64,000 bases of DNA, taken from NCBI RefSeq assembly GCF_009796805.1, contig NZ_CP047029.1, forward strand, positions 4,416,001-4,480,000, read 5' to 3'. The notes beneath the pieces were generated by a model, which was not told the origin of the DNA, did not search any database, and saw only the letters and a list, made by a program, of their open reading frames with translations. Every line of letters starts with the position of its first letter. Positions within the stretch are counted from its first letter, which is position 1. The position numbers were made by a program, and so were the translations under genes. Positions 19,201-58,269 of this stretch are shown one piece after another. The stretch comes from Algibacter sp. L1A34. Lineage in GTDB: Bacteria; Bacteroidota; Bacteroidia; Flavobacteriales; Flavobacteriaceae.

Positions 19201-21021
19201 GGATGCACTGAGGAATCGTTTGTTACAGAAACCTTACCAACGACCCCTAATTGCACAACACTTAATAATCCGTTAAACAATGATACAGATGTAGATATTA
19301 CTACGGATTTAAGTTGGATAGCTGCAGCAGATACAGCTGGATATATTATCTCTGTGGGGACAACCTCAGGTGCTACAGATATTTTAGATAACGAAGATGT
19401 TGGAAATGTAACAACTTACAACTTAACTTCAGGTTTACCTGAAACAGAAACTATATTTGTAACCATTACACCACACAACGCGGTAGGCAATGCCACAGGA
19501 TGTACTGAGGAATCTTTTACTACAGAAACCTTACCAACGGCTCCTAATTGCACAACACTTAATAATCCGCTAAACAATGCTACAGATGTAGATATTACTA
19601 CAGATTTAAGTTGGATAGCTGCAGCAGATACCGCTGGATATATTATTTCCGTGGGAACAACTTCAGGCGCTACCGATATTTTAGATAACGAAAATGTTGG
19701 AAATGTAACAACTTTCAACTTAACTTCAGATTTACCTGAAACAGAAACTATATTTGTAACCATTACACCATACAACGCGGTAGGTAACGCGACAGGATGT
19801 ACTGAGGAGTCGTTTGCTACAGAAACCTTACCAACGGCTCCTAATTGCACAACACTTAATAATCCGCTAAACAAGGCTACAGATGTAGATATTACTACAG
19901 ATTTAAGTTGGATAGCTGCAGCAGACACCTCTGGATATATTATCTCTGTGGGGACAACCTCAGGTGCTACAGATATTTTAGATAACGAAGATGTTGGAAA
20001 TGTAACAACTTACAACTTAACTTCAGATTTACCTGAAACAGAAACTATATTTGTAACCATTACACCATACAACGCGGTAGGCAATGCCACAGGATGTACT
20101 GAGGAATCTTTTACTACAGAAACCTTACCAACGGCTCCTAATTGCACAACACTTAATAATCCGCTAAACAATGCTACAGATGTAGATATTACTACAGATT
20201 TAAGTTGGATAGCTACAACAGATACCGCTGGATATATTATTTCCATGGGAACAACTTCAGGCGCTACCGATATTTTAGATAACGAAAATGTTGGAAATGT
20301 AACAACTTACAACTTAACTTCAGATTTACCTGAAACAGAAACTATATTTGTAACCATTACACCATACAACGCGGTAGGCAATGCGACAGGATGTACTGAG
20401 GAATCTTTTGTTACAGAAACACTTCTAACGATTCCCAATTGTACAACACTTAATAATCCTGTTAATAACGATATAGATATCTCAATAGAGACTACTATTG
20501 ATTGGGAACCTGTTACAGGTGCAGATGGATACAAAATTTCCATAGGTTCTACATCTGGAGGAACACAGATAATAGATAATTATGATATCGGGTTTTCTAC
20601 ATCTTATAGTTTAGATAACGACTTACTAGAAGGAACGTCTTACTATGTAAATATCACGCCGTATAACGTTATGGGAGATGCTGAGTCTTGTACAGAAAGC
20701 ATTTTCACAACATTAACCCTTCCAAAAAATGATGTTAAATATGGGTTTTCGCCGGATAATGATGGCATTAATGATTTCTGGACTATTGAAGGCATAGAAG
20801 TCCACCCTGATAACATCGTTACTATTTATAACCGTTGGGGAGATATGGTATTTCAAACTAAAGGCTATAACAACACAACTAATGTGTTTAGAGGTATCGC
20901 TAACAAAAAGACAAAAATGGGAGCAGATATATTACCTGAAGGAACTTACTTCTTTAATTTCTCAATTAAAGGCTCACATAATTTTGACAAACTAAAAGGC
21001 TTTGTTGTTATAAAAAGATAA
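13231..21021 (+). CDS. Giant T9SS-secreted surface protein with PKD-like, DUF285/BspA and FN3-like repeats
   Basis: 2596 residues with a signal peptide ending at about residue 19 (SFS-QT). The plan is two copies of one module followed by a repeat stalk. Module 1: PKD-like domain ('VDWGDGQTDAGVTGDITHTY', about 48-97), about 17 DUF285 (BspA-type, 25-residue) units of the form W-x-V-S-x-V-T-x-M-x-x-M-F (134-567), then one FN3-like unit beginning at Cys 614. Module 2 repeats this order: PKD-like from 711, about 20 DUF285 units at 837-1354. From 1411 come eleven FN3-like units of about 99 residues, six of them (1810-2403) nearly identical. The C-terminus (about 2499-2596: 'FSPDNDGINDFWTIEG', 'IYNRWGDMVFQTKGY') is a T9SS type B (CHU_C, gliding-associated) sorting domain. 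Adhesion is inferred. The partner gene lies 10 bases downstream. Confidence 0.92.
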   Translation: MKYIINLLFLFLSLTSFSQTEFSSLWNTSNIDTGTSAINEIAIPTNPSYTYNYNVDWGDGQTDAGVTGDITHTYATPNTYTITIDGTFPSIYFNNQGDKLKIIEILNWGNTQWQTMENAFYGCENLNFDAIDSPDLSQVTSLKNMFKAATSFNGIINNWDISTITNISGLFYGTDIFNRPLDLWNTGNVTDMSETFYRASNFNEPLDNWNTAQVTNMTKMFYSAFTFNQNINGWDVSRVTDMSYMFYGTIYNQPLNNWIVNNVTNMYYMFYSSDFNLPLNNWTVDNVTNMSRMFGQSEFNQPIEIWNVSNVTDMSYMFYRHRTFDQPLNEWDVSNVTNMTSMFDGYSWGGKFNQPLNNWVVNNVTNMSFMFRDNRYFNQPLNNWIVSAVTDMESMFEDTEIFNQDITGWDVSNVIDMSSMFEDADAFNQAIASWDVSNVTNMSSMFYLTDTFNQPLEIWDVSKVRNMSSMFNRALAFNQALNGWETSAVTNMSYMFYTYNTVTAFNQPLNNWDTSAVSNMSAMFGNASTFNQSLGSWNISNISNMSDMLDNSGLSQTNYDNTLISWESQSVKDNVTLGAAGLNYCDSRDQRQNLIDNSNWTINDDIINCSFVLCTSLVSPVNGDTNVPSNTNITWEAVPGATGYKVSYRIENGGAITATETDLDVGYVTGLDFTSDLTPGDTVYVTIVPYNTTDGDATGCTEESFTVISNWVNDPTAFKLTIDTSIAESYTSAANQLEIDANSGYPDYLTYNYSIDWGDNQFNNNVTGDITHTYLVPGIYTISIIGDYPAHYYSSYFSDSKKLLSIDQWGTQQWQSMKDAFYGCSNMEYNATDIPDLSQVTTAYRMFGSASLFNGDINDWDVSNIEDMSSMFQSATVFNQPLNDWDVSSVTNMQYMFSSTRNFDQPLDNWITSNVTNMLGMFSYASIFNQNINNWDVGSVTTMRRMFDRASLFNQPLLGWDVSSVNSMEEMFNDAIAFDQPIDNWIVSNVTNMSSMFENATAFNQNINSWIVSAVTDMNSMFNSATNFNMPLNNWDVTSVTNMQSMFESAETFNQNINTWNVTNVINMASTFESAKAFNEPLNGWDVNSVVDMTSMFESAEVFNQPLNIWNVSAVANMTSMFEKALVFNQDLSTWNVSSVTLMPSMFEDARAFNQPINTWNVASVTTMEEMFKNAIVFNESLDNWNTGEVLTMEEMFSGATAFNQNIDNWNVSFVKTMEAMFKNASSYNQTMNSWNVASVTTMEEMFSGATVFNKIIDSWNVRAVTTMEEMFYNATAFNQTINSWRVSNVLNMDAMFRNASSFDQALDRWDIGETSMRYMFSNAAALNQEFSTWDVSRVTNMQYMLDNTALTRENYDATLVAWSKLVLITNINLGAQSLLYCDALEERQSMIDTYGWTFTGDILDCPIPACTQLISPANGDTDVPVNTNLTWEPTLYARGYKLTVITQPGNVLLVNNETVTDPSYQFLLDFSGNEIVEVTITPFNDEGEPTGCTMESFTITNNSVPTVPECTSLTTPLDETIDISVESSLEWTPIANADGYRITAGTTSGATDILNDIDVANVTVYDLPSDLPENTKIYIKITPYNATGDATTCSEESFTTEIIPVAPTCTNLTSPLDGATDVPTDTDISWNATPNTTGYLLSVGTTGGGIEVLNNIDVGNVTTYDLPDNLNANRLIFVNITPYNEVGDATSCNEESFRTGSFASTDTQTCTSLTSPLNNATDISISTNLTWASNATVNGYKISIGTTTGATDILTLTDVGNITTYDLVTDLPETTTIFVTIIPYGDIGDATGCTEESFTTETLPTAPNCTTLNNPLNNDTDVDITTDLSWIAAADTAGYIISVGTTSGATDILDNEDVGNITTYNLTSDLPETETIFVTITPYNAVGNATGCTEESFVTETLPTTPNCTTLNNPLNNDTDVDITTDLSWIATTDTAGYIISVGTTSGATDILDNEDVGNVTTYNLTSDLPETETIFVTITPYNAVGNATGCTEESFVTETLPTTPNCTTLNNPLNNDTDVDITTDLSWIAAADTAGYIISVGTTSGATDILDNEDVGNVTTYNLTSGLPETETIFVTITPHNAVGNATGCTEESFTTETLPTAPNCTTLNNPLNNATDVDITTDLSWIAAADTAGYIISVGTTSGATDILDNENVGNVTTFNLTSDLPETETIFVTITPYNAVGNATGCTEESFATETLPTAPNCTTLNNPLNKATDVDITTDLSWIAAADTSGYIISVGTTSGATDILDNEDVGNVTTYNLTSDLPETETIFVTITPYNAVGNATGCTEESFTTETLPTAPNCTTLNNPLNNATDVDITTDLSWIATTDTAGYIISMGTTSGATDILDNENVGNVTTYNLTSDLPETETIFVTITPYNAVGNATGCTEESFVTETLLTIPNCTTLNNPVNNDIDISIETTIDWEPVTGADGYKISIGSTSGGTQIIDNYDIGFSTSYSLDNDLLEGTSYYVNITPYNVMGDAESCTESIFTTLTLPKNDVKYGFSPDNDGINDFWTIEGIEVHPDNIVTIYNRWGDMVFQTKGYNNTTNVFRGIANKKTKMGADILPEGTYFFNFSIKGSHNFDKLKGFVVIKR
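18658..20439 (+). repeat. Six tandem 297-bp repeats inside the surface-protein gene
   Basis: Unit starts (first base of the Cys codon) are at 18658, 18955, 19252, 19549, 19846 and 20143, each exactly 297 bases (99 codons) apart; a divergent seventh unit starts at 20440. Units differ at only a few positions (for example AAAD/ATTD, NND/NNA/NKA, SVG/SMG). Nucleotide identity is high even at silent sites, so the array arose by recent duplication or is kept uniform by gene conversion. Confidence 0.95.
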
Positions 21022-46213: not shown

Positions 46214-46244
46214 AAGCCGTTTCTATTATAGAAACGGCTTTTTA
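46214..46244. terminator. Bidirectional terminator
   Basis: AGCCGTTTCTA and TAGAAACGGCT pair around a TTA loop (46214-46238), with A-run and T-run on the two sides. Confidence 0.92.
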
Positions 46245-46264: not shown

Positions 46265-48025
46265 TTAATTATCTCTTAACACATGGATTGTAACAGAAAG
46301 TGTTCTTATACTTCCTGCTGTGTCTGTATAGGTTCCATTAATCGTTGCATCAATATAATCGCCAATATTACCATAGCTCGCCAAGTTTAGCTGTAAACTA
46401 TTCGCGACATTATAATCCAAATTTACATTTCCTCCTTCAAAACCAAACTGAGAGAAAGCATAATTACCAGGCGTTATTGTATCGATTCCTATATAAAACC
46501 AATCGTTAGTAGCTCCAGTGTTCGATTTTGCATTTATCGTAAAACCTGTACCTTGTTGGTAAGTATTTGCATCGATACCTATAACATAATAATCTACTGG
46601 ATTATTATCTACCTGTATACTAACGTATTCTGTTATAGAATTACACGCTATAATATTTCCAACATTACTATTGGTGAAATTAAACGTTAACTCATTGGTT
46701 GTTTGAAAACTATCATAATCTACACCTTCTAATGTAAAATCGAGAACAGAAGGACATTGTAATACTGAAAATGAAAATGAACCATTTGTTACTTGAGATG
46801 TTGCATATTGGTTACCATAATCTAAAACCACATAACCATTTGTAACATTAACACTAGAACAATCTACCAAACTTCCCGTAATAGTTGAAGAAACAACTGA
46901 AGACAGTACTACATCTCCTAAATTAGTATCTGCTGAAAAAGGACCAACTGTAGTAGTATACTCTAAATCTCCACATTGATTAAAGGCTTTTAAAGTTAAT
47001 ACCTCATTTGCAGGTATTAATCCACAAATTTCGCCGTCGCCATTAGAATTACCAATTCTTGGATAAACAGCACCACTTCTCCATAACTCTACTTTCACAT
47101 TAGAAACAGGATTATTAGCATTGTCTACAATATTTAAACACAGGTTTACTGTTGGAAATTGTGCATCGCAGTTCCACCAAGAAAAATGAGCAACTTCTCC
47201 AATATATTTTCCGCCTACTAATGTTGCAATACCATCTTCAATCCAATATCCATTAACCTCATCAAAATGCCATAACGGTATACTTGCTGGCGCTACACTT
47301 ATTTGTGCAGGATCTACAGGTAATTCAATTTGTGCAAAACTACCATCGGCAATGTTTAATTTTTCTCCAGAATCTCCTTTTAATTCAACATTTATCATCC
47401 CGTAAGTTTCTAAAACACGCTCTTGTCCATTAGAATTTTGAGCTTGTAAACTTCCTGGCATTAAATCTTCCACATCAGGATTAGCTGGGTCTAAGTGATA
47501 TACAAATACCTTAACATTCCCTGAGTAAGCGTTTCCGTTTTCATCTTTAAAATCACCATCAAAACTTACTTTTGTTCCATTGGTTAAAGAAACCTCACTA
47601 CTGCTTCCAGAAGCTACTGTACCGGCTAAATGCTCTGCTACTAGTATTATTTTAATTTGGTTTGTACCAGAAGTTGGCACTACGGAGCGCATTCCTTTTA
47701 AATAACCCAATTTTTCGGCTGTAATAAATGCTAAATCTTCGTTTACATCGGTATTATTAATAATAAACATACCGTTTTCGTCTGTAGAAGCAATCTTACC
47801 TCCTATTGTAATGTTTACATTTTCTACAGGTAAATTTGTTTCATCAACAATTCTTCCCATAAAATCTCTTTGAATACTTGAACCTAAATCTAAAGTTGCT
47901 TCGCTATTTTCTCCAAAATCTACAGAAGAGTCATTACTATCCTTTGGATCGCATGAAGTAAATAATGTGCTTAACACTATAAATAGGCTAAGCATAAATC
48001 TAAAATTTTTGTTTACTATTTTCAT
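46265..48025 (-). CDS. Lipoprotein with carboxypeptidase-regulatory-like domains
   Basis: 586 residues; lipobox 'TLFTSC', Cys 25. An N-terminal CarboxypepD_reg-like sandwich (about 52-130: 'RDFMGRIVDETNLPVENVN', 'GYLKGMRSV') is followed by a region with 'IPLWHFDEVNGYWIEDG', like the FAM171-type extracellular domain, then a second such sandwich ('VSNVKVELWRSGAVYPRIG'). The C-terminal 130 residues ('EYVSIQVDNNPVDYYV' and 'GNIGDYIDATINGTYTDT') resemble the lipoprotein at 51748-52299. It lies 84 bases after the response regulator gene, same strand. A surface-exposed role is inferred. Confidence 0.8.
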   Translation of the reverse strand: MKIVNKNFRFMLSLFIVLSTLFTSCDPKDSNDSSVDFGENSEATLDLGSSIQRDFMGRIVDETNLPVENVNITIGGKIASTDENGMFIINNTDVNEDLAFITAEKLGYLKGMRSVVPTSGTNQIKIILVAEHLAGTVASGSSSEVSLTNGTKVSFDGDFKDENGNAYSGNVKVFVYHLDPANPDVEDLMPGSLQAQNSNGQERVLETYGMINVELKGDSGEKLNIADGSFAQIELPVDPAQISVAPASIPLWHFDEVNGYWIEDGIATLVGGKYIGEVAHFSWWNCDAQFPTVNLCLNIVDNANNPVSNVKVELWRSGAVYPRIGNSNGDGEICGLIPANEVLTLKAFNQCGDLEYTTTVGPFSADTNLGDVVLSSVVSSTITGSLVDCSSVNVTNGYVVLDYGNQYATSQVTNGSFSFSVLQCPSVLDFTLEGVDYDSFQTTNELTFNFTNSNVGNIIACNSITEYVSIQVDNNPVDYYVIGIDANTYQQGTGFTINAKSNTGATNDWFYIGIDTITPGNYAFSQFGFEGGNVNLDYNVANSLQLNLASYGNIGDYIDATINGTYTDTAGSIRTLSVTIHVLRDN

Positions 48026-48109
48026 AATTCAAATGTTTAAGTGTTCGATTTTTACTGATTATACACTTATATACATTTACCTTATTTTTTGTTACCCTAT
48101 TTTTTAAAA

Positions 48110-48850
48110 TTAATTAAATAAACTTAAAAATGCTTTTCTATTTGTTTTAGATATAGGTACACGATATTCGTTATCTAAAACAACATAACCTTCATTTTCA
48201 AAATGACGCACTTTTCCAAGATTAATTATGTGAGATTTATGACATTTAAAAAAATTAGAGTTTAACATTTTTTCGAACTTCCCTAAATTGTAAGAGCTCA
48301 TTATTGTTATTTTATCTATTAAGTGAATTTTAGTATAACCATCGTACCCCTCTAAATGTAAAACTTCATCTTGAGGAATAAAGGAAACTCCTTTTTTAGT
48401 AGGCACCACAATTTTGTTATTGTTAGAAATATTTTCTTCTAATAAACTTACCAATTTTGAGTTATTATCACTTTCATTTTTTAACTTTATTAAGTCTAAA
48501 GCTTTATTTACAGCAGCAATCAAATCATCATTATCCACAGGTTTCAAAATATAATCTATGGCAGATTTTTTAAAAGCTTCAATAGCATATTCACTATAAG
48601 CTGTTACAAAAATGACCTGAAAATTGACATTTTTTAATTGAGCCAACAGTTCGAAACCATTAATTCTAGGCATTTCTATATCTAAAAACAAAATGTTAGG
48701 TTCTTCTTGCAAAATAGCTTCTATGGCTTCTTCTGGTTTTTGAAAAGCACCTAAAACTTTAATAACAGGAAACAGTTTTTTTATCTTGCGTTGTAAACCT
48801 TTCAAGTTTGAAATTTCATCGTCTACCAATATGGCCGTTATACTATCCAT
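48110..48850 (-). CDS. LytTR family response regulator
   Basis: 246 residues. Receiver domain (1-120): acidic pocket 'ILVDDE' (9-12), phosphoacceptor D57 in 'ILFLDIEMPRINGFE', Thr in 'VIFVTAYSEYA', Lys in 'DYILKPVDN'. The LytTR DNA-binding domain (about 145-240) has 'KKGVSFIPQDEVLHLEGYDG' and 'FFKCHKSHIINLGKV', and binds promoter DNA as a beta-fold. The start ATG shares one base with the kinase stop (48850), so kinase and regulator are translationally coupled. Confidence 0.95.
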   Translation of the reverse strand: MDSITAILVDDEISNLKGLQRKIKKLFPVIKVLGAFQKPEEAIEAILQEEPNILFLDIEMPRINGFELLAQLKNVNFQVIFVTAYSEYAIEAFKKSAIDYILKPVDNDDLIAAVNKALDLIKLKNESDNNSKLVSLLEENISNNNKIVVPTKKGVSFIPQDEVLHLEGYDGYTKIHLIDKITIMSSYNLGKFEKMLNSNFFKCHKSHIINLGKVRHFENEGYVVLDNEYRVPISKTNRKAFLSLFN

Positions 48851-51699
48851 TATTTATTTTTTTCAATTATAAATATCGACTTATTCCCTTTATCCTCTCG
48901 ATCCGGATACATTTCTTCTTTACTGTAACTTATGTTCCATTTTTCTGAAGAATTTAAAAAGTGTAATCTATCTTTTAAAACATTAGAAGATTTAACTTCC
49001 TTTTGGTTTCTTTTTTTTGTCTTCACAAACCCAACTCCATCATCAATAATTTCAACCTTAAAAGTGAGCGGATTGATGTAAATAAAATTAAGCGTAATTA
49101 ACCCGTTATCCATTTTATTAAAAACTCCATGATTTACAGCATTTTCAACAATGGGTTGCAACAACATGGTTGGTATGGTTATGCGTTCTTTATCTAATTT
49201 CACATCAATATTGATGGTAAAATTCAGCTTTTCTTTAAACCGAAGCTTCTCTATCTCCAAATAATTATGAAGCACACTTATTTCTGTTCCTAAGGAGATT
49301 TCGTTTTCTTTGGATAACTCGAAAAATTGACGAATAAGTTTTGAGAATTTCACTAAATATGTTTCGGAAGCTTCAAAATTATTTTCCCCAATATAATATT
49401 GTATAGCCGATAGAGAGTTGAAAACAAAATGAGGATTCATTTGAAACCTTAAGGCTTTTAGTTGTAGTTCTGACAAGCGCTTGTCTTGAAATATTTGTTG
49501 ATTTTTTTTGAATTGTGAGCGTTTTACAAAAAATCTAGAAATTAACACAACAAGAATAATACTTAGTAATACAATTAATCCTTTTACCCATATGGCCTGC
49601 CACCACAAAGGCTGAATAGTAAAACTTAATTGCTTTTTCGCACTGTTAGTATCTATATACAGCGTATATTTTCCGGGTTGAAGATTATTAAAACTAAAAT
49701 TATTAGTAGTTGTTGAAACCCAATCTTTTTGAATAGGTTTTAATTTGTATTTATATGAAAAAACATCGTCTCCTGACGAAAAATCAATATGCGATATATT
49801 GAAATTTAAATTATTATTTTTTTGATATTTAAAAACAGAATAATCTGCAGAAATATCACTTTTATTATATGTTGCCTTGTCTATATAAACATCTAACAAA
49901 TGGGTTTCGTTTTGTACATCTTTAGGTAAAACTACAATCCCTTTGTCTGTACTCGCCATTAATTCATTCTTGTAAACAATAACATTACTTACGCTGTTAG
50001 AAGATAAACCGTTGTTTTTATCTATGATCAATTGTAGGCTAAAAACACCGTTGTTTTTCGTGTATTTTAATATACCAGACTCTGTTGCTAACCAAATAAT
50101 ATCATCTTCAATAAAGGCATTATTTACAATTTGAAATTCGGAACCAGGAAGTTGTTTTATGGTTTTCAAATCTGAAATGTAAGCGCCAAAACCATCTGTA
50201 TTTATTAAAATATCGTCTTCTGAAACTGCTTTAAGGTTTAAAATAGACTTATTAAAATCTTGATTGGTAAATGGTATAGATTTAAATTCTTCATCTATAA
50301 ACTCTTTTAAACCACTAGATGTAGCTACTAAAAGTTTCTGATTGAATAGGAATATTTGATTAACCCCTTGTTGATCATACTGGTTTTCAATACTGTAATT
50401 ATTTGGATTTATTTTATTCATTCCAAATGAAAACCTAGTATAAAAATAATCATCATAATAAACTAACTGCCTGATTTTATCGTTAATACCATTGATGTTA
50501 TTTAAAAAATCCAGCTTCTCAATTTTATTGTTTTTTGCGATTCTTACACTCGATTTAGACAGATAATATTCTGCGTCTAAAGCTTTAATATAAGAAGCAT
50601 CAAAAATATAATCATCTTCTGCTATAAACTGTACAAACTCTTTTTTAAGATCATCATATTTATAAAATCCTTTATTAAAAACATTGGCGATTATTTTATC
50701 ATTCACATAAGCAATGTTACTTACGGTTTCTGCAGATAAGCAATATTTAACTTGTTGTTTTTCTTTAGGCAAGTGGTAAATACCATTTGTAAAAGTACTT
50801 AACCATATAGAACCCACTTTATCATAAAAACCAAAATGTGCTTTTAATTCCTTCGGAATATAATATGTATTGGTGATATAAAAATTGGAGTCTAGCATAC
50901 CAACAAAGCCTTCTCCTGAAATTTGCAAGCCATTATTCACAAGATTAATCCTTACGTATTTAGACGTTTCAACATTAATCTCATTTTTAAAATTTCTCCT
51001 ATATAATTTTAAAGTATTTAAGTTGAGAAAAGCGTATTCTTTATTATTTACCCAATAAAATAAACTATCGGTAATTTGGCCTCTTACATTCTTATTTTCA
51101 AGTACATCTTTAAACTCAAAACCATCAATAACAGTCTTATTTTCATCTCTAACAAAAATAGAATCTTTAGCTGTATTTGTTGTAAAACTTGAAACCTGAG
51201 CATGCTTAACATAAGCCACTCTTATTAAATCTTCTGCTCTAGAATCGGCTAGGCTACGCCATTTTTCATCTTTTAAAACATGAAATTTATTAGAACCCGT
51301 TAAAATAATAGTATTATCAACCTGACTTGAAAAAATTGGACTAAAAATCTCTCCTTTTTGCTCACTCTCAAAACCGTATACACTATCACTCTCTATGTAA
51401 CCTAATTTTGATGATTTAGATAAATACCAAAGCTTATTATCTGGTGTTGGGTAAATTCCCCAAACATCATTATTTGCCAAACCGTCTTTAGTAGTAAACA
51501 CTTTAAAGGTATTGCCATTATATTTAACCAAACCTTTAGCAGTGGCAAACCATAAAAACCCTTTTTGATCTTGAGCTATTTTATAAATATGGTTACTTGG
51601 TAAACCATTATCGGTAGTGTAATTTGTAAATTGTTGTGAAAAGGAAAAACTCCATATCGAAATAAGTAATAAAGCGATATAGAGTTTTTTATATTTCAA
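48850..51699 (-). CDS. LytS-type sensor histidine kinase with periplasmic two-component propeller and Y_Y_Y domain
   Basis: 949 residues. Signal peptide (about 1-21). The periplasmic sensor comprises beta-propeller blades ('TTDNGLPSNHIYKIAQDQKG', 'FLWFATAKGLVKYNG' and similar weaker ones to about 630) and a Y_Y_Y sandwich (about 640-705). One membrane helix (about 715-735). The kinase part is HisKA_LytS-like: His 757 in 'FQMNPHFVFNSLSAIQYYIG', N-box 'PIVENAVNHG' (849-858), G-box 'DDGVGF'. Unlike SusR-type hybrid sensors it lacks fused receiver and HTH domains; these are on the separate LytTR protein. The ligand is unknown. Confidence 0.92.
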   Translation of the reverse strand: MKYKKLYIALLLISIWSFSFSQQFTNYTTDNGLPSNHIYKIAQDQKGFLWFATAKGLVKYNGNTFKVFTTKDGLANNDVWGIYPTPDNKLWYLSKSSKLGYIESDSVYGFESEQKGEIFSPIFSSQVDNTIILTGSNKFHVLKDEKWRSLADSRAEDLIRVAYVKHAQVSSFTTNTAKDSIFVRDENKTVIDGFEFKDVLENKNVRGQITDSLFYWVNNKEYAFLNLNTLKLYRRNFKNEINVETSKYVRINLVNNGLQISGEGFVGMLDSNFYITNTYYIPKELKAHFGFYDKVGSIWLSTFTNGIYHLPKEKQQVKYCLSAETVSNIAYVNDKIIANVFNKGFYKYDDLKKEFVQFIAEDDYIFDASYIKALDAEYYLSKSSVRIAKNNKIEKLDFLNNINGINDKIRQLVYYDDYFYTRFSFGMNKINPNNYSIENQYDQQGVNQIFLFNQKLLVATSSGLKEFIDEEFKSIPFTNQDFNKSILNLKAVSEDDILINTDGFGAYISDLKTIKQLPGSEFQIVNNAFIEDDIIWLATESGILKYTKNNGVFSLQLIIDKNNGLSSNSVSNVIVYKNELMASTDKGIVVLPKDVQNETHLLDVYIDKATYNKSDISADYSVFKYQKNNNLNFNISHIDFSSGDDVFSYKYKLKPIQKDWVSTTTNNFSFNNLQPGKYTLYIDTNSAKKQLSFTIQPLWWQAIWVKGLIVLLSIILVVLISRFFVKRSQFKKNQQIFQDKRLSELQLKALRFQMNPHFVFNSLSAIQYYIGENNFEASETYLVKFSKLIRQFFELSKENEISLGTEISVLHNYLEIEKLRFKEKLNFTINIDVKLDKERITIPTMLLQPIVENAVNHGVFNKMDNGLITLNFIYINPLTFKVEIIDDGVGFVKTKKRNQKEVKSSNVLKDRLHFLNSSEKWNISYSKEEMYPDREDKGNKSIFIIEKNK

Positions 51700-51725
51700 T
51701 AGTATTTAATTTTAATTGATTAAAA

Positions 51726-51733
51726 CAAAAGTA
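51726..51733 (-). promoter_or_regulatory. -7 element of the kinase gene
   Basis: TACTTTTG on the minus strand matches TAnnTTTG and ends 26 bases before the kinase ATG. It suggests that kinase and regulator can be made independently of the upstream lipoprotein genes. Confidence 0.45.
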
Positions 51734-51747
51734 AGGGTTTTAAGTAT

Positions 51748-52299
51748 TTATTGATCTATTTCTCGTAATACTCTACCTTCACCTTCTACATAACCTTGAA
51801 TAGCAGGATCTAATGCATCAATATAATCTCCAGAAAAGGTGAATTCTATATAATCGCCTACAATTACCGGGTGTGCTGTAACTGTGCACATAATAGGTGT
51901 GCTTGGTAAATTTGTTGTACTAGAAATAAACATGTTTCCTGCAAAAATATCTGTAAAATAAAAATTACTAGTAACACCATCTGAAACTCCCCAAGCAAAA
52001 TTAGTAGTAGATGTAAACGCGTTGAAATCTTGAAAGGTAAAACTTCCATCTACAATAGGGCTTGATCCTGATGCTGTTTCGGCACCTGCTCTAAAAAAGA
52101 ACTTTTGGTATACGGAATTAGTATTTGAAGTAAACCAACCTTTAGCTTGCGAATCGAAAACTCTTTCTACTCCGTTATTAACGGTATATTTAAAATACTC
52201 ATCGGTATTACCTGTAGACATTAATGCATCATCACTACTGCAACTACTCATTAATAACAATATAACGGTTAAGCTTATTGATTTTAAAATTTTATTCAT
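51748..52299 (-). CDS. Lipoprotein of unknown function sharing a C-terminal domain with the 46265 protein
   Basis: 183 residues from ATG 52297-52299 ('MNKILKSISLTVILLLMSSC'), which places the lipobox 'LLMSSC' properly at Cys 20. A longer frame opens at 52332 but would bury the signal peptide. After a short linker, 'DEYFKYTVNNGVERVFDS' and the end 'VIVGDYIEFTFSGDYID' resemble 'EYVSIQVDNNPVDYYV' and 'NIGDYIDATINGTYTD' of the lipoprotein at 46265-48025. The two thus appear to share a domain of about 130 residues, and they flank the two-component system. Function unknown. Confidence 0.75.
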   Translation of the reverse strand: MNKILKSISLTVILLLMSSCSSDDALMSTGNTDEYFKYTVNNGVERVFDSQAKGWFTSNTNSVYQKFFFRAGAETASGSSPIVDGSFTFQDFNAFTSTTNFAWGVSDGVTSNFYFTDIFAGNMFISSTTNLPSTPIMCTVTAHPVIVGDYIEFTFSGDYIDALDPAIQGYVEGEGRVLREIDQ

Positions 52300-52324
52300 A
52301 GAAAAATATCGTTTAAAGTTTAAT

Positions 52325-53365
52325 TTATTCACCTAGCGCTATAAAATTCCCAAAACCAATAGCTAAAGAAGATTCTAATTCAAAATCATTATTACTTATA
52401 TCATAAATATGTAATCCATCTGCATCTGTGACATAAGCATAATCTCCATTTAAGGCTATACCGCTTGTTCTGTTTAATGCTGTGATATCATATAAAGATA
52501 AAGTAGATAAATCATACATACGAACACCATCATAACTTGTTTGTAAAGGCGCATTTAAACTCGGTTTCATTGTTACAAAAGCAACTCCATTATGCAAAGC
52601 AAAAGCCGTAGGATACCCTTCTATAGATACTTCATTTACTAAAGTAAGTGTTGCTGCATCAAATTGTTTAATTTTTTTATCATTTGTATTCGCTACAAAA
52701 ATAAATGTACCATCTGTTTCTACCCATGTGTGGTATTGCCCAATAGGCGTATCTGCATAAGATGAAGTATCCACATCTGTATTATTTGCTACTCCTGTTG
52801 TTACAGGTGTTCCAGGTGTGGTAATATCATAAGCATATAAACCATTAGCTTGATCTATAACAAATAATTCATTTTGAACTTTTGTTAGACTCATAGCATC
52901 TCCTCCTAAATTTACTTGGCTACTAAAATTAAAATTAGCAACATCTACAACATGTAAACCTCTATAAAAATCTGTTAAATAAGCAACATTATTAATCATA
53001 AACATATCACTTATTAAACTAAATGCAAGCGTATTATCTTTTTGGATTTCTACAGAAACATTTGGTATTGTCGGGTTGCTAATATCTATTAAACTTAAAT
53101 AAGGCTCTATGGCATCATATTGAGCAACATAAGCCACATCTGGAGACACACTTACAAAGTAAGATGTATTTACAGCAATACTACTTACAAAAGCTGGAGC
53201 GGTTGGTGTAGCTATATCAATAATTTTTAAATCTGTACCATCAGTGACATATGCATATTGCGGCGTTGTTGTACTTCCTGAAGAGTTAGAAGAACTATTA
53301 TTACTACAACTAAAAGCTAACAAGCTTAAAGCTATTAAATATGTTATTTTTATAAAATTTTTCAT
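52325..53365 (-). CDS. LVIVD-repeat beta-propeller lipoprotein
   Basis: 346 residues; lipobox 'LLAFSC', Cys 20, followed by a Ser/Asn-rich linker. The rest consists of LVIVD-type repeats of about 40 residues: 'YAYVTDGTDLKIIDIATPTA', 'YLSLIDISNPTIPN', 'LHVVDVANFNFSS', 'GLYAYDITTPGTPVT', 'GVRMYDLSTLS', 'GLHIYDISN'. This predicts a seven-bladed propeller at the outer-membrane surface, usually a protein or sugar-binding scaffold. Same strand as its neighbours; 25 bases to the next lipoprotein gene. Confidence 0.85.
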   Translation of the reverse strand: MKNFIKITYLIALSLLAFSCSNNSSSNSSGSTTTPQYAYVTDGTDLKIIDIATPTAPAFVSSIAVNTSYFVSVSPDVAYVAQYDAIEPYLSLIDISNPTIPNVSVEIQKDNTLAFSLISDMFMINNVAYLTDFYRGLHVVDVANFNFSSQVNLGGDAMSLTKVQNELFVIDQANGLYAYDITTPGTPVTTGVANNTDVDTSSYADTPIGQYHTWVETDGTFIFVANTNDKKIKQFDAATLTLVNEVSIEGYPTAFALHNGVAFVTMKPSLNAPLQTSYDGVRMYDLSTLSLYDITALNRTSGIALNGDYAYVTDADGLHIYDISNNDFELESSLAIGFGNFIALGE

Positions 53366-53455
53366 GTTTATTGTTTTAAAAGAAAAAGTCTTTCTTGTAT
53401 TTTTTTTCTTTACACTAACATGTAAAGCTTACTTTAACCTTATTACTACTATTTA

Positions 53456-54556
53456 TTAATCTGTAAAAACATTATTTCCGTTAGCAACTAACGTATTATA
53501 ATCTGCTACACCTTGCCCTGTTGGTGGTGCCGCAGTTTGTTGATCATATAATGAAATATTTTTCCCTGAAAAAGACGGTGAAATAGCTACTAACTGACTG
53601 AGAATACGATTAACCTCTGTAGTATCTAAATTATTAAATGGAAAATACACTTGATTAAAAGAAACTATTGATGGGAAATTTATACTTGATAAGCTAGCAT
53701 TCCTGTATAAATTAAAACTCGATAATGTATTTGTTAATTGAGGTAAATTAATTGACGCTAATTGATTGTTTTCATGTATTGTAAACTGAACAGTACTTGT
53801 TAAAGAAGATAAATCTATACTGGTTAATAAATCGTTATCATAAATAAGTAAATTAGAGTCAATTACAGAAAGATTAGATAAATTTAAGGTTGTTAAACTC
53901 GCACTTTCTGTTATAATTACCTTATTTCCATTAATGACTCCACTTAAATCTAATGATGTAAGGTTTAAATTTTCTTGAAATTCAATATTAAAAACTTCAG
54001 ATAAATTATTTAAAGATAAACTCGTTACATTAGTATCTCTAATATATAAATCATAAACCTCGGTTAATGCCGAAATATCAATCTGTTGTAAACAAGTTAA
54101 TACACCAGGGCTACCATCTATAAAAAGAACAGATACCTTTTCTAAACTTAATAAATCTAAACTGGTAAGTAATGGTGTATCATCAAAACTTAGCTCATCG
54201 CTAACCTCAACTAAATTAGACACATTTAATGTTGTTAAAGTTTGGTTATCATCAATTTGTAAAGACACTAAGTTTGTAACACCAGACAGGTCCAAGGTAG
54301 TAAGTTGAGTTGTGTTTTCTATATAGATAAACTGTGTGATAGATCCTATTTCATTCTGTACTTTCAAAGCTGCTTCTGCATCAGTTATATTTCCATTAAA
54401 GTAAACATAAGTAACTCCAGATGCATCTTGCCCGTCTGTTCCGTTTGTACCGTTAATGCCATCTTGTCCATCTACGCCGTCTACACCATCAACACAACAA
54501 GAAACCATCAAAATTAATTGGAAACTTAAAAAGAGTGATTTTAAAATTGTTTTCAT
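53456..54556 (-). CDS. Leucine-rich-repeat-like lipoprotein with collagen-like linker
   Basis: 366 residues. Signal with lipobox 'LILMVSC' (Cys 20 or 21). The N-terminal linker has G-x-x triplets 'GVDGVDGQDGINGTNG' like a short collagen. From about 70 to 320 come irregular leucine-rich repeats of 22-24 residues ('TTLDLSGVTNLVSLQIDD', 'LTSLDLSGVINGNKVII', 'LTSIDLSSLTSTVQFTI'), like receptor L-type beta solenoids. It is probably a surface ligand-binding protein. 91 bases separate it from the LVIVD gene; the terminator just upstream (54598-54625) suggests that a new transcript starts here. Confidence 0.8.
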   Translation of the reverse strand: MKTILKSLFLSFQLILMVSCCVDGVDGVDGQDGINGTNGTDGQDASGVTYVYFNGNITDAEAALKVQNEIGSITQFIYIENTTQLTTLDLSGVTNLVSLQIDDNQTLTTLNVSNLVEVSDELSFDDTPLLTSLDLLSLEKVSVLFIDGSPGVLTCLQQIDISALTEVYDLYIRDTNVTSLSLNNLSEVFNIEFQENLNLTSLDLSGVINGNKVIITESASLTTLNLSNLSVIDSNLLIYDNDLLTSIDLSSLTSTVQFTIHENNQLASINLPQLTNTLSSFNLYRNASLSSINFPSIVSFNQVYFPFNNLDTTEVNRILSQLVAISPSFSGKNISLYDQQTAAPPTGQGVADYNTLVANGNNVFTD

Positions 54557-54597
54557 ATTTGTTATTTTTTATTTGCGTTATAAAAATTTAATGCTTC

Positions 54598-54625
54598 AAA
54601 AAAAGGGAATCCAAAATAAGGATTC
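54598..54625 (-). terminator. Terminator after the 54715 lipoprotein gene
   Basis: On the minus strand GAATCC and GGATTC pair around TTATTTT (54625 down to 54607), followed by CC and a run of seven T (54604 down to 54598). The stem is short, so termination may be partial. Confidence 0.55.
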
Positions 54626-54714
54626 TTTCCTTCGTAATAAATTATTTTCACAGATTCTAGTGTTGGATTATCTATAAAAATGATTAGTATTAAAACAAAT
54701 CTATTTCTATTCTA

Positions 54715-55377
54715 TTAATCTAAAATAACTCCAAAAGTTCCTTCGTAATGACCTGTTATAACATCACCATTTTCATTGATAAAAGTATAATCTGCATCAA
54801 TAGTACTTCCTGTTGGATCATTAGCATCTAAATTAATTTGATTTATTGTTATTGTTGTTCCAACAACTTCGGTTTCATTAACAACACCTTCATCTTCATC
54901 CCCTTGTCCAAATTCTATATTGTTATTAGAATATGATGGACTTAAAGCATTAATTAGTCCGTTTTCTATTATAACCGTATCACTACTACCACCAATATAA
55001 GTACTTCCTACCATTGGACCTGCGCTTACTAAACTTGGGTTCTCATCTGCACGTAGATTAAAAAACACCCAATTTGTAGTGTCTAAAGAAAATAAATAAT
55101 CGTCGCTTATGCCATTTACATGTGTTTCATTATCAAGCATTCTTCCATTAGAAAAGAAAAAATTGTATTCATCTGGAAATCCATTATTACCTATATTAGC
55201 GTTGTGATCGTCATCATCCTCATCTATTTCAAAATAAGCATTAGCCGTTTCGTAAAATGTGCCATTATGTGTAAACCCATCTGTTGGGTTTACTGGATCT
55301 GTTTGAGCGTCATCATTATTATCACAACTATACATTGAAATAGTAAGAAGTATTAAAAGTGCTTTTATTATTTTCAT
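54715..55377 (-). CDS. Lipoprotein of unknown function
   Basis: 220 residues; lipobox 'ISMYSC', Cys 18. The mature protein is strongly acidic ('EIDEDDDDHNANIG' near 51-64, 'EFGQGDEDEGVVNETE' near 155-170), hinting at calcium binding. Beta-rich sequence such as 'TITINQINLDANDPTGS' and 'DADYTFINENGDVITGHY' near the C-terminus ends like a small immunoglobulin-like or lipocalin-like domain. No family recognised. It lies 20 bases after the next upstream lipoprotein gene. Confidence 0.7.
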   Translation of the reverse strand: MKIIKALLILLTISMYSCDNNDDAQTDPVNPTDGFTHNGTFYETANAYFEIDEDDDDHNANIGNNGFPDEYNFFFSNGRMLDNETHVNGISDDYLFSLDTTNWVFFNLRADENPSLVSAGPMVGSTYIGGSSDTVIIENGLINALSPSYSNNNIEFGQGDEDEGVVNETEVVGTTITINQINLDANDPTGSTIDADYTFINENGDVITGHYEGTFGVILD

Positions 55378-55397
55378 CGCTATTTTTATTTTTTCTA

Positions 55398-55829
55398 TTA
55401 ATGGTATAAGTCAATAATTACGCAGTATTCAGCTTCTACACCACCACCAGTAATATCATATCTAAATTCTTCTCCTATGGCATTACCAGCTCTTTGGCAA
55501 GCAACATTTACAGTATGGATTGTACCATTAACACTTAATTGTCCTACTCCAGTTGCCCCGTCTGTTACAACTAATGTTACAAACCAAAAATTCCCTGGGT
55601 CGCTAGATTTATATATCTCTACTTCTGGCCCATTTGATGATGTGTAAAAGAAATCGGTGGTTAGATCAGATTCCGCAATTAATGTTTGCGTATTATCTGA
55701 AGTATCTAAAAAAGTAAACCCGGCAAAATTACATTCATCTTGATTGTCTGCATTGCCATCATCATTATCGCAGTTAAATAAAACTAGTGTTAAAACTAGT
55801 AGGCAAAGCGTTTTGATAGTTGTTTTCAT
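55398..55829 (-). CDS. Small lipoprotein of unknown function
   Basis: 143 residues; lipobox 'LVLFNC', Cys 20, then an Asp/Asn-rich linker 'DNDDGNADNQDEC'. The body is beta-rich ('FWFVTLVVTDGATG', 'LSVNGTIHTVNVACQRAG') with three further Cys residues. Only 20 bases separate its stop from the next gene, so the two are cotranscribed. Not recognised. Confidence 0.7.
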   Translation of the reverse strand: MKTTIKTLCLLVLTLVLFNCDNDDGNADNQDECNFAGFTFLDTSDNTQTLIAESDLTTDFFYTSSNGPEVEIYKSSDPGNFWFVTLVVTDGATGVGQLSVNGTIHTVNVACQRAGNAIGEEFRYDITGGGVEAEYCVIIDLYH

Positions 55830-55923
55830 AATTGTTAATTTGTTTTTATATTTATTATATATTTCTCTTATATCAAAGCAACTAAGAAATTGTTACCCCT
55901 TAATTGATTCTTTTTTTAATTAT

Positions 55924-56595
55924 TTAAGAAACTTCATCTACTATTCCATCACAATCATCGTCAATATCATTTTTTATTTCTGTAGAGTAAGGGTGAATAT
56001 AAATATTAGTATCATCGCAATCTAAAGAATTATAGACACCATCTTTTTCTGCTCGTTCCTGAGAGCCATAACCATCTCCGTCTGCATCTACATAAGTAAT
56101 ATCATCTGTATCAATTTCTCCGTTACAGTTGTCATCTATTTCATTATTATAAATTTCGTCTGCTATAGGGTTTATGTTAGGATCTTTATCATTACAATCT
56201 GCATTATTAGTCACAAAATTTTCTGGAGCACCTTCTCCTAAAACGATCTCAATAACTTCTGAAACATCCGAATTTCCAAAACCATCACCATCTTCATCAT
56301 GATAAAAAGTAAAAGCGTGTAAATCATTACAATCTTCATCTATAAGATTATCTGGAATTTCTGTTGCTCCAGGATAAACACTTGCATTGGTATCATCACA
56401 ATCTGTATTATCTGCTACATATCCTTGAGGTTGGTCATATTGACTATTATAACTTCCATTATCACCATAACCATCTCCATCTGCATCTTCAAACCAATCT
56501 CCAGATGGGTCACCAGTACACCCGGAACCTATAATAAATACAGCGGTTACTAATAACATAATTGGTAATATTATTTTTAAAAATCGATTTTTCAT
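55924..56595 (-). CDS. MopE-type putative metal-binding lipoprotein
   Basis: 223 residues; lipobox 'FIIGSGC', Cys 26. It holds three MopE-like units, each with an EF-hand-like D-x-D-G-D-G-x-G ('EDADGDGYGDN', 'DEDGDGFGN', 'DADGDGYGSQ') and a Cys pair motif D-C-D-D/N...E-D-C-N ('NTDCDDTNASVYPGA', 'ADCNDKDPNINPIADE', 'LDCDDTNIYIHP'). Such units occur in surface proteins, including the copper-binding MopE, and probably bind calcium. The gene starts 4 bases after the Lgt-like gene's stop, so it is translated with it. Confidence 0.88.
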   Translation of the reverse strand: MKNRFLKIILPIMLLVTAVFIIGSGCTGDPSGDWFEDADGDGYGDNGSYNSQYDQPQGYVADNTDCDDTNASVYPGATEIPDNLIDEDCNDLHAFTFYHDEDGDGFGNSDVSEVIEIVLGEGAPENFVTNNADCNDKDPNINPIADEIYNNEIDDNCNGEIDTDDITYVDADGDGYGSQERAEKDGVYNSLDCDDTNIYIHPYSTEIKNDIDDDCDGIVDEVS

Positions 56596-56599
56596 AATG

Positions 56600-57400
56600 T
56601 TATATATTAATTGTTTTTAAATCTGTTTGTGTATAATATTTATAGTAGAAATAAGCTGAAATTGAAATAAGGCATAAGCCGATAAATTGCGAATGCGAAA
56701 GCACATTTTCTATAATAAACCCTCTATCGTCTCCTCTAAAAAACTCTAGAATACCACGACCTAAAGCATAAAGCATCAAATAGATTAAGAAAATTTGACC
56801 ATTAAATTGTTTGTGTTTTTTAACCATTAATAATGTTAACATAATGCACACCAATAATAATACCTCGTACAATTGTGTTGGATGTACAGACGCACCATGT
56901 GTTGTAGGGAATATTAAACCAGAGCCACTAGTTGTTGGAGATCCATAACAACATCCTGCACTAAAACAGCCTAATCGACCTATAGAATGTACAATGGTTG
57001 TTGTAATTGCAAAAATATCTAGCATTGGCAAAACCGGTATCTTCTGCTTTTTTAAATACCAAATGATATATGGAATAATAACTACAAACGAACCATAGAA
57101 TACAAAACCGCCAGAGAAATTATCTAGCATTAAACTGGGGTTTTGTATATAGTGCAACGGATCTTGCAAATAGAAAAATAACTTTCCGCCAACAAACCCC
57201 GCTATAAAAATGAGATAAAAAAATGTGTTAGAAATATTAGTGATACCTAGTTCTCTTTTCGCACTCCATTTAGTATAAATAGCTGCTGCCAAAGTACCTA
57301 ATGCAATTAAAAAAGCATAAGAGTAGACGGTAACATGCTTTACACCCAATAGATTTGATAAAAATTCTGGTAATGAAAAATTGAATAGTTCTGGGTGCAT
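56600..57400 (-). CDS. lgt: Prolipoprotein diacylglyceryl transferase family protein (Lgt-like, atypical active loop)
   Basis: 266 residues with seven membrane helices. The Lgt signature region reads 'HSIGRLGCFSAGCCYGSP' instead of the usual G-R-x-G-N-F-x-N-G-E; the Arg is kept, while the Asn and Glu are replaced and three Cys appear. The H-G-G-L loop of Lgt is 'NFSGGFVFYGSF', so the essential His is lacking. 'LGRGILEFFRGDDRG' matches the last conserved Arg region. Lgt attaches diacylglycerol to prolipoproteins. This variant occurs in Bacteroidota, and it may be a functional Lgt or a related acyltransferase. It is followed at once by lipoprotein genes. Confidence 0.8.
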   Translation of the reverse strand: MHPELFNFSLPEFLSNLLGVKHVTVYSYAFLIALGTLAAAIYTKWSAKRELGITNISNTFFYLIFIAGFVGGKLFFYLQDPLHYIQNPSLMLDNFSGGFVFYGSFVVIIPYIIWYLKKQKIPVLPMLDIFAITTTIVHSIGRLGCFSAGCCYGSPTTSGSGLIFPTTHGASVHPTQLYEVLLLVCIMLTLLMVKKHKQFNGQIFLIYLMLYALGRGILEFFRGDDRGFIIENVLSHSQFIGLCLISISAYFYYKYYTQTDLKTINI

Positions 57401-57750
57401 CTCGTAAATTATTTTTTTTGTTGAAAAACCTTCTTGTATTATTTTTATAACATTTATTTAGAAGCAGTAAATACTAACTTTATATGCTTTTCTTATTTAT
57501 ACCAATAACACCTTGAAAATATTACCCTTTCAGTAAAAAAATACGTTAGCGAAAATTGATAAAATCCTACTAACGATAAGTCTTATAATAATTAAGAACA
57601 CGTGCAAAATAAAGTGTATTACTAAGATTATGAAGATGTATTTACCCAATAGATATTTTCGTTGAATGAAACCGTGTTTTCATTCAACCATTAGATAATT
57701 TATGTTTTTATAAAAAAACACCTTATGTTTGTAGGAGGATAATTAAACTT
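57401..57750. other. Divergent intergenic region with an inverted repeat
   Basis: 350 bases, AT-rich, with no gene. It contains the start region of the Lgt-like gene (no clear -7 found), and close to the rightward gene an 11-bp perfect inverted repeat with a 6-base loop (57661-57688), described separately. Confidence 0.6.
57661..57738 (+). promoter_or_regulatory. Inverted repeat, -7 element and purine-rich leader of the 57751 gene
   Basis: GTTGAATGAAA (57661-57671) and TTTCATTCAAC (57678-57688) are perfect complements. TATGTTTG (57724-57731) matches the -7 consensus. AGGAGG (57733-57738) looks like a Shine-Dalgarno sequence, rare in this phylum, but it lies 12 bases from the ATG and would be at the transcript's very start. 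The repeat is placed about where an activator or repressor would bind. Confidence 0.45.
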
Positions 57751-58269
57751 ATGGAACAGCAAATTTTAAACCTTTTAATGTATATAATTCCTTCTATAAT
57801 TACGGGAGTTATCGCTTTTTACTTTTTTAAAGAACACACAAAAAATGAGGATGGTCGCAGACGTTTTCTCTTAAAAAAAGATCTGCAAGTAAACGCATTG
57901 CCTTTACGCTTACAAGCTTACGAACGGATGGCTATTTTTTTAGAACGCATTACGCCATCAAAACTACTTATTAGAGTAGCTCCAACATCTTCAGATAAAG
58001 AAAATTATGAATCTCTATTAATACAAAGTATAGAACAAGAATTTGAACATAACTTATCACAACAAATCTATATAAGTGATAAATGTTGGAACATTATTAC
58101 TGCATCAAAAAATGCAACTATTCAACTTATTAGAAAAGCCAACTTACTCGAAAAAACCGATTCTGCTAATAAATTACGTGAAGTTCTTTTAACCGAAATG
58201 ATGGACCGTTTAGCTCCAACCGATGCTGCTCTATCTTATATAAAAGAAGAAGTTTCTAGTTTATGGTAA
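57751..58269 (+). CDS. Membrane-anchored conserved protein of unknown function
   Basis: 172 residues. One N-terminal helix (about 7-26, 'LNLLMYIIPSIITGVIAFYF') and a cytoplasmic alpha-helical domain with 'LPLRLQAYERMAIFLERI', 'SLLIQSIEQEFEHNLSQQ' and 'LLTEMMDRLAPTDAALSYI'. The style is that of a small Bacteroidota membrane protein, but I do not know its role. Its last 9 bases overlap the 3' end of the converging patatin gene. Confidence 0.75.
   Translation: MEQQILNLLMYIIPSIITGVIAFYFFKEHTKNEDGRRRFLLKKDLQVNALPLRLQAYERMAIFLERITPSKLLIRVAPTSSDKENYESLLIQSIEQEFEHNLSQQIYISDKCWNIITASKNATIQLIRKANLLEKTDSANKLREVLLTEMMDRLAPTDAALSYIKEEVSSLW

Follow-up and report, generated by a model that had tools for sequence, protein, structure and literature searches.

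Introduction

Prolipoprotein diacylglyceryl transferase (Lgt) is generally regarded as a housekeeping enzyme for all lipoproteins. In the Escherichia coli enzyme Y26, R143, G154 and R239 are essential, and so are H103 and N146 (PMC13251419); the HGGL motif has been proposed as the peptide site and the signature motif as the filter for the lipid donor (PMC4728403). The sites described for LytTR regulators are mostly 9-bp repeats separated by 12 bp (PMC6193735). The locus analysed here carries a variant Lgt homologue together with a LytS/LytTR pair. It lies in a stretch of 64,000 nucleotides (64 kb) of Algibacter sp. L1A34 (contig NZ_CP047029.1), referred to below as the window. The source, a flavobacterium, is closely related to Algibacter lectus, the histidine kinase (HK) of which is 93% identical to that of the window. 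Ten genes, on the minus strand throughout, fill positions 46265–57400 and encode the Lgt homologue, seven lipoproteins, the LytS-type HK and the LytTR response regulator (RR).

This is probably a locus of exchangeable surface proteins under the control of a sensor, in which a dedicated Lgt–substrate pair is the first cargo. Judged by sequence, its site is fixed and its cargo exchanged, an operator stands before the cargo, the Lgt carries variant residues, and Lgt and signal peptide are paired one-to-one. Window proteins were compared with fetched loci by tblastn; 54 loci were mapped, and L244 and L245 were added later (L and G numbers denote loci and genomes, respectively).

The variant Lgt and its partner lipoprotein

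The operon opens with two genes:

56600..57400, minus strand: variant Lgt, a prolipoprotein diacylglyceryl transferase homologue (FYGS / GRLGCFSAGCCYG); Pfam LGT PF01790, 5.5e-50
55924..56595, minus strand: partner lipoprotein, special 26-residue signal peptide and MopE metal-binding motifs in three stretches; PF11617, 1.8e-26

The variant Lgt belongs to PF01790 (170.4 bits, cut-off 24.9), and its AF2 model (pLDDT 74) matched E. coli Lgt (5azb) with a Z score of 18.4 and an rmsd of 3.8 over 231 residues. The window copy and all other aligned CCYG-type copies have Y, C and C in place of H103, N146 and E151, respectively, so the protein was not classed as a canonical Lgt. The same copies keep the equivalents of Y26, R143, R239, E243 and R246, and all have the essential residues Y26, R143, G154 and R239. 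Four Lgt homologues are encoded in the source genome, two of them (L001 and L002) with the ordinary H103, N146 and E151. Lgts with the ordinary residues were also seen in 8/10 family genomes that have the variant (the residue table leaves out L215 and L219–L222, missed by the open reading frame (ORF) filter).

The gene directly after the variant Lgt encodes a lipoprotein with the special signal peptide in 17/17 Flavobacteriaceae loci, and in 19/19 when L244 and L245 are added. The spacing is 4 bp in 13 of the 17 and at most 36 bp, or an overlap, in the others. The signal peptide is of the type MKKxFLKTILPxxLLVxAVFIIGSGC and 26 residues long in 15/17 partners. Gly at −3 is found in 17/17 partners and in 2/56 other lipoproteins of these loci, a Pro in the middle of the helix in 16/17 and 4/56, respectively. 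The mature part is MopE in 13/17 loci, lp143-like in L057 and a different protein in L058, L061 and L062.

A profile of this signal peptide gave a single strong match per genome in all 13 genomes with the variant Lgt (E 2e-18 to 8e-6), the next best match being at 0.018. L060 was excluded from the profile because of a miscalled start and its match (E 8e-6) was recovered independently; the sequence matched in G147 likewise lies outside the profile. In 77% of the 136 partner pairs compared, similarity was higher in the signal peptide than in the mature part, and the 52 pairs with a mature identity below 30% averaged 51% identity in the signal peptide (lp143 of L054 and lp220 of L118, with miscalled starts, were left out of the signal-peptide comparison). 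As a control, lipoproteins encoded −1 to 6 bp behind an ordinary lgt in 8 genomes were compared: the signal peptides were 35% and the mature parts 61% identical, and the signal peptide was the more alike in 0/28 pairs. By sequence, the variant Lgt and the special signal peptide are paired one-to-one.

Adjacency of lgt and a lipoprotein gene was rejected as special in itself, since ordinary lgt is also followed by a lipoprotein gene at −1 to 6 bp (8 loci). The small lipoprotein gene a few bases behind ordinary lgt in L002, L210–L214, L216 and L218 forms a conserved pair of its own in which the signal peptide is not shared; its product resembles DUF192.

Among 397 Flavobacteriaceae genomes the variant Lgt was found in 12 (E ≤ 1e-60), lp143 in 14 and the HK in 38 at the thresholds used. 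Lgt and HK occurred together in 10 genomes (1.15 expected, P 1e-9), lp143 and HK in 11 (1.34 expected) and Lgt and lp143 in 7 (0.42 expected), all uncorrected for relatedness. The variant Lgt was present in 4/375 genomes of a phylum sample, the source genome included, and in 1/346 of an order sample, the source genome itself (the family, phylum and order samples partly overlap). In two genera it was present in 6/7 and 4/6 genomes. A copy truncated at a contig end (G1043) was not counted.

A fixed chromosomal site with exchanged cargo

The remaining features of the interval are as follows:

55398..55829, minus strand: lp143, recurrent lipoprotein with acidic residues behind the Cys; no Pfam family above cut-off
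54715..55377, minus strand: lp220, recurrent lipoprotein; no Pfam family above cut-off
54565..54684, minus strand: remnant (C-terminal part) of an x105-family small lipoprotein gene; tblastn against x105 of L025, 60% over 40 aa, 2.7e-15
53456..54556, minus strand: LRR-like lipoprotein with Gly-rich linker, accessory cargo; LRR_5 under cut-off, relative in L057 only
52325..53365, minus strand: LVIVD-repeat lipoprotein, accessory cargo with paralogues; PF08309, 6.1e-14
51748..52332, minus strand: lp194 lipoprotein, accessory cargo; no Pfam match, relatives in L027, L032, L056 and L108
48850..51699, minus strand: HK, propeller, Y_Y_Y and LytS-type histidine kinase; Pfam His_kinase, Y_Y_Y and Reg_prop
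48110..48850, minus strand: RR, receiver and LytTR DNA-binding domain; Pfam
46265..48025, minus strand: lp586 lipoprotein with conserved upstream element AGGGTAACAA; Pfam scan and promoter alignment

The HK and RR have the domains of a LytS/LytTR two-component system (PF06580, 2.7e-20; adjoining receiver, 2.4e-21, and LytTR, 2.8e-16). Of the 54 mapped loci, 23 have their genes next to a glutamate-synthase-like gene (with UvrD behind it in the window); with L244 and L245 the site loci number 25. On the opposite flank a divergent small gene (57751–58269 in the window) was found in 21 of the 23; L026 and L127 show one side only. What stands beside the pair differs. Eight site loci (L109, L110, L112, L115, L117, L120, L121 and L123) hold one gene of about 580 codons before the HK and no lipoprotein; these genes are homologous (44–97% identity to the L110 copy), and the L110 protein, the sole copy tested, has a type IX sorting domain at its C-terminus. 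Larger type IX proteins are the cargo in L054 and L026, and curlin-repeat proteins (two tested) precede HK and RR in L127.

The relatives of the window carry Lgt–MopE and a varying set of lp143, lp220, LVIVD, lp194, LRR and lp586, down to the minimal form in L244, which has Lgt, MopE, HK and RR and none of the other cargo families. Compared with its close relatives L027 and L032, the window is 91–96% identical in Lgt, HK, RR, lp194 and the main lp586 copy (93–96% in Lgt and HK), 73–81% in MopE and 51–52% in lp220; LRR and LVIVD are absent from both by tblastn. From the comparison of these loci, the HK–RR pair holds one chromosomal site while the neighbouring cargo is exchanged.

HK fragments with stops lie behind MopE in L031, L053 and L056, and L029:14815–14994 is a fragment of a second LytTR regulator, the trace of a lost HK–RR copy. 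These fragments suggest that modules arrive with an HK–RR pair of their own and that the surplus copy then decays. A gene for a CPBP/Rce1-like membrane protease lies behind MopE in L053 (6280–7209, the copy tested), with genes of similar size in L029, L031 and L056; it adjoins the HK remnant in L031, L053 and L056. Second lp586 copies were seen at L032:7129–8853, at the head of the operon directly after the operator, and at L057:3549–7307.

LytTR-type operator and promoter-like elements

Two elements were located upstream of the variant Lgt gene:

57657..57687, minus strand: LytTR-type operator, TTGAATGAAA and TTCAACGAAA with a 21-bp period, and a weak third repeat down to about 57636; matrix score 21.2 bits
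57603..57611, minus strand: conserved TATTTTGCA element, probable −7 region; comparison by eye

Direct repeats of 10 bp with a 21-bp period stand upstream of both the Lgt gene and the type IX gene in promoter alignments, and the arrangement agrees with that of LytTR promoters (direct repeats of about 9 bp, 12 bp between them, upstream of the promoter). A TATTTTGCA-like element lies at a near-constant distance from the operator in loci of the Lgt clade, as compared by eye; it is probably the −7 element, as in Bacteroidota promoters. Repeats of at least 8/10 were found at period 21 in 11/18 regions; any other period between 14 and 30 gave such repeats in 1 to 7 regions.

The operator matrix was built from 12 sites chosen by eye, which scored 4.3 to 23.2 bits when each was left out in turn. 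The window operator is one of these training sites and scores 16.5 bits when left out; at 21.2 bits it is the top match in the 64-kb window (runner-up 16.0), and it is the sole pattern match with 0 mismatches in its own genome. An operator stands upstream of the cargo in 24/25 site loci, with L117 included at 14.6 bits. For site loci outside the training set, an operator of at least 15 bits precedes a cargo gene in 12/13 (L025, L026, L029–L032, L054, L055, L110, L127, L244 and L245; L110 nearly duplicates the training locus L109). The L032 match was flagged as coding by a crude ORF filter and was counted since it lies directly before the first cargo gene. The background of the matrix amounts to at least 10 other matches in coding DNA (2.0 million positions, both strands). 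Away from the site, operators precede lp143 in L058 (22.7 bits) and L118 (15.6) and the HK in L125 (17.3). No operator of at least 15 bits was found before the cargo in the off-site loci L059–L062, L111, L113, L114, L116, L119 and L122, among others; three further repeats with a 21-bp period, of another kind, lie in L059.

A large regulon was rejected: with at most 2 mismatches, the pattern and its reversed control gave 9/10, 8/5, 6/5 and 7/7 matches in 4 genomes. Control therefore looks local, as operator-type sites show no genome-wide excess. Since a LytTR-type operator precedes the operon, control by the locus's own sensor is likely, and the RR is likely to bind the operator and to control the cargo operon. 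A separate TAnnTTTG element lies 34 bp before the HK gene in the window, and such an element was found 30–34 bp upstream in 7/22 HK regions examined; TAnnTTTG is a motif of Bacteroidota promoters. The gene set is probably not a single transcript, because the HK has this promoter-like element of its own. A scan for sigma-70-type promoters was uninformative (63 sites, shuffle mean 72.1).

Matrix matches of two further kinds were seen. In L127 (1063–8727) they lie upstream of several curlin-repeat genes, and curli-like fibres may be a further target of this LytTR pair. At window positions 13231–21021 an ORF of 2596 residues contains repeated weak matches, probably coding repeats.

Other sequence features of the interval

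A preliminary description of the window had listed one Lgt homologue, seven lipoproteins and a LytS/LytTR pair on one strand, and this gene list was borne out; a lipobox-type N-terminus was found in the seven proteins both by eye and by script. It had called the Lgt atypical, as the replacements of H103, N146 and E151 confirm, and had reported no SusC/D, peptidase or transport gene. None of the ten proteins gave a Pfam match to SusC/SusD, peptidase or transporter families, and the interval thus lacks the SusC/SusD pair of a polysaccharide utilisation locus. As for the surface-scaffold labels given there, MopE (1.8e-26) and LVIVD (6.1e-14) stood; LRR_5 (16.1 bits, cut-off 27.7) and CarboxypepD_reg (19.7 bits, cut-off 32.3) score under the Pfam cut-offs, so these two labels are weak. 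MopE and LVIVD are used here as database names.

The AF2 model of lp143 (pLDDT 84) had no match in the PDB at E ≤ 1e-3, so a function could not be derived from its fold. A hairpin with a T-run lies at 46243–46211, 3′ of lp586. A terminator-like hairpin at 54625, between lp220 and LRR, was dropped as a candidate because it sits inside the x105-family remnant. An Rfam scan of the window gave no match.

Proposed explanation and alternatives

In the probable arrangement introduced above, the membrane kinase would sense an outside signal and phosphorylate the LytTR regulator, which would bind the repeats of 21-bp period before the cargo operon and alter its transcription in one direction or the other. 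The operon, which in this clade opens with the variant Lgt and its partner followed by further lipoproteins, would then supply an Lgt that lipidates mainly or only the partner by reading the special signal peptide, and ordinary Lgts would serve the remaining lipoproteins. The partner would be the constant substrate and the rest exchangeable, with the products presumably exposed at the surface. The narrower claim, that the variant Lgt is a substrate-dedicated transferase with a signal-peptide code of its own (26 residues, mid-helix Pro, Gly at −3), perhaps with a different lipid and made on demand through the local sensor, we hold to be evenly balanced.

Several observations weigh against this proposal. 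An H103Y Lgt gives no complementation in E. coli (PMC4728403) and an N146A Lgt fails to complement (PMC13251419), so activity of the variant is not assured. For lp220, too, the signal peptide exceeds the mature part in similarity in 67% of 55 pairs, and the lp143 signal peptide in G077 weakly resembles the special one (E 0.037). Three CCYG-type Lgts outside Flavobacteriaceae (L143–L145) have no such partner, and linkage alone could keep Lgt and signal peptide alike. On the side of the operator, the training sites of L117 and L123 are weak when left out (4.3 and 7.1 bits), the site locus L108 has none (6.5 bits), and the source genome holds 9 pattern matches with at most 2 mismatches, against 10 for the reversed pattern.

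Linkage is central to a reading that we hold to be fairly unlikely, in which the variant is an extra general Lgt that adds capacity, and the partner keeps its signal peptide because the recombination that swaps the mature part takes place just behind it. The L057 protein, a MopE-type signal peptide fused to an lp143-type mature part, is what such recombination would leave; many lipoproteins accompany the variant Lgt in the window, and two lgt copies are reported for about 1,300 genomes (PMC13251419). Linkage is just as close for the lipoprotein next to ordinary lgt, which shows no such conservation; the features conserved in the partner (Gly at −3, Pro, fixed length) are likely to matter for recognition and persist even where the Lgts are 53–54% identical, and in L059, L060 and L244 the partner is the sole lipoprotein of these families beside the variant Lgt. 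It is unlikely, too, that the variant has ceased to be a diacylglyceryl transferase and either transfers another lipid or serves its partner as a chaperone or retention factor. It retains equivalents of Y26, R143, R239, E243 and R246, as described above, even though none of the aligned CCYG-type copies has H103, N146 or E151 and the replacements can be set beside the proposed peptide site (HGGL) and donor filter (signature motif) of E. coli Lgt (PMC4728403). The Leptospira Lgt, with Cys at N146, restores cell shape in E. coli and viability only poorly, and Firmicutes Lgts have Y at H103 (PMC13251419), for which reason the reading that loss of H103 makes the variant inactive was dropped. Because similar replacements occur in other Lgts, and the Leptospira enzyme is partly functional, the variant may well be an active diacylglyceryl transferase.

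The preliminary description had proposed a single regulated operon whose seven lipoproteins form one calcium-dependent outer-surface complex. The common strand, the recurrent neighbourhood, the MopE motifs and the nearby sensor would fit, and production tuned by the locus's own sensor is, as set out above, likely. Content differs even among close relatives (L032 and L027), L244 is without the other cargo families, and HK and lp586 carry separate upstream elements; eight loci hold a single gene of another kind and L127 has curlin-repeat proteins. One complex of all seven is on this evidence very unlikely, a fixed scaffold set is not supported, and one operon for the whole set is improbable. That the genes stay together is true of the recurring neighbourhood in relatives and fails for LRR and LVIVD (missing in L032 and L027) and for L244. 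The signal peptide shared by the Lgt partners, the operator, the exchange of cargo and the x105-family remnant are additions to that description.

For a dedicated Lgt–substrate pair with exchangeable cargo under local control, as we propose, the locus would predict the binding site of its regulator to the base. With an Lgt copy and a single signal peptide coupled one-to-one, and the protein behind that peptide swapped, the substrate specificity of Lgt becomes testable in a natural pair. It also appears that flavobacteria can exchange the apparently controlled surface proteins, be they lipoproteins, type IX proteins or curlin-like proteins, and leave the sensor, regulator and operator where they are.

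Comparison with known systems

No description of a dedicated Lgt–substrate pair, or of an operator with exchanged cargo, was found in searches of the open-access literature, which leaves most subscription journals outside coverage; the available part of PMC12636315 uses the ordinary Lgt pathway. The variant resembles E. coli Lgt (5azb) in its Pfam family, its fold (Z 18.4) and the equivalents of R143, R239 and E243; it differs by H103→Y, N146→C and E151→C, by the matched lipoprotein alongside (19/19) and by the further Lgt homologues in the genome. MSMEG_5408 of Mycobacterium smegmatis, which has N146C, and the plasmid lgt of Firmicutes are likewise paralogues beside an ordinary Lgt (PMC13251419). 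For such second copies the accessible parts of that paper do not describe a dedicated substrate with a matched signal peptide, unlike what is seen with the variant Lgt.

LytTR and LytS–LytR systems share with this locus the direct repeats of 21-bp period upstream of the controlled promoter and the local regulation (PMC6193735); the locus differs by its propeller-type kinase and receiver–LytTR regulator and by cargo that is exchanged between genomes. The repeat is TTGAATGAA here and ACCxCTTAx in streptococci (PMC6193735). The surface lipoprotein export signal of Bacteroidota (SDDFE in Flavobacterium johnsoniae; PMC5080379) is similar to lp143 and lp220, which are acidic after the Cys, whereas the conserved part of the Lgt partner precedes the cysteine; at +2 to +6 about 3 acidic residues are present in lp143 and lp220, and 1.1 on average in the partner. 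In its proposed pairing of an enzyme with a signal-peptide code, the variant Lgt would be comparable to sortases with matched sorting signals.

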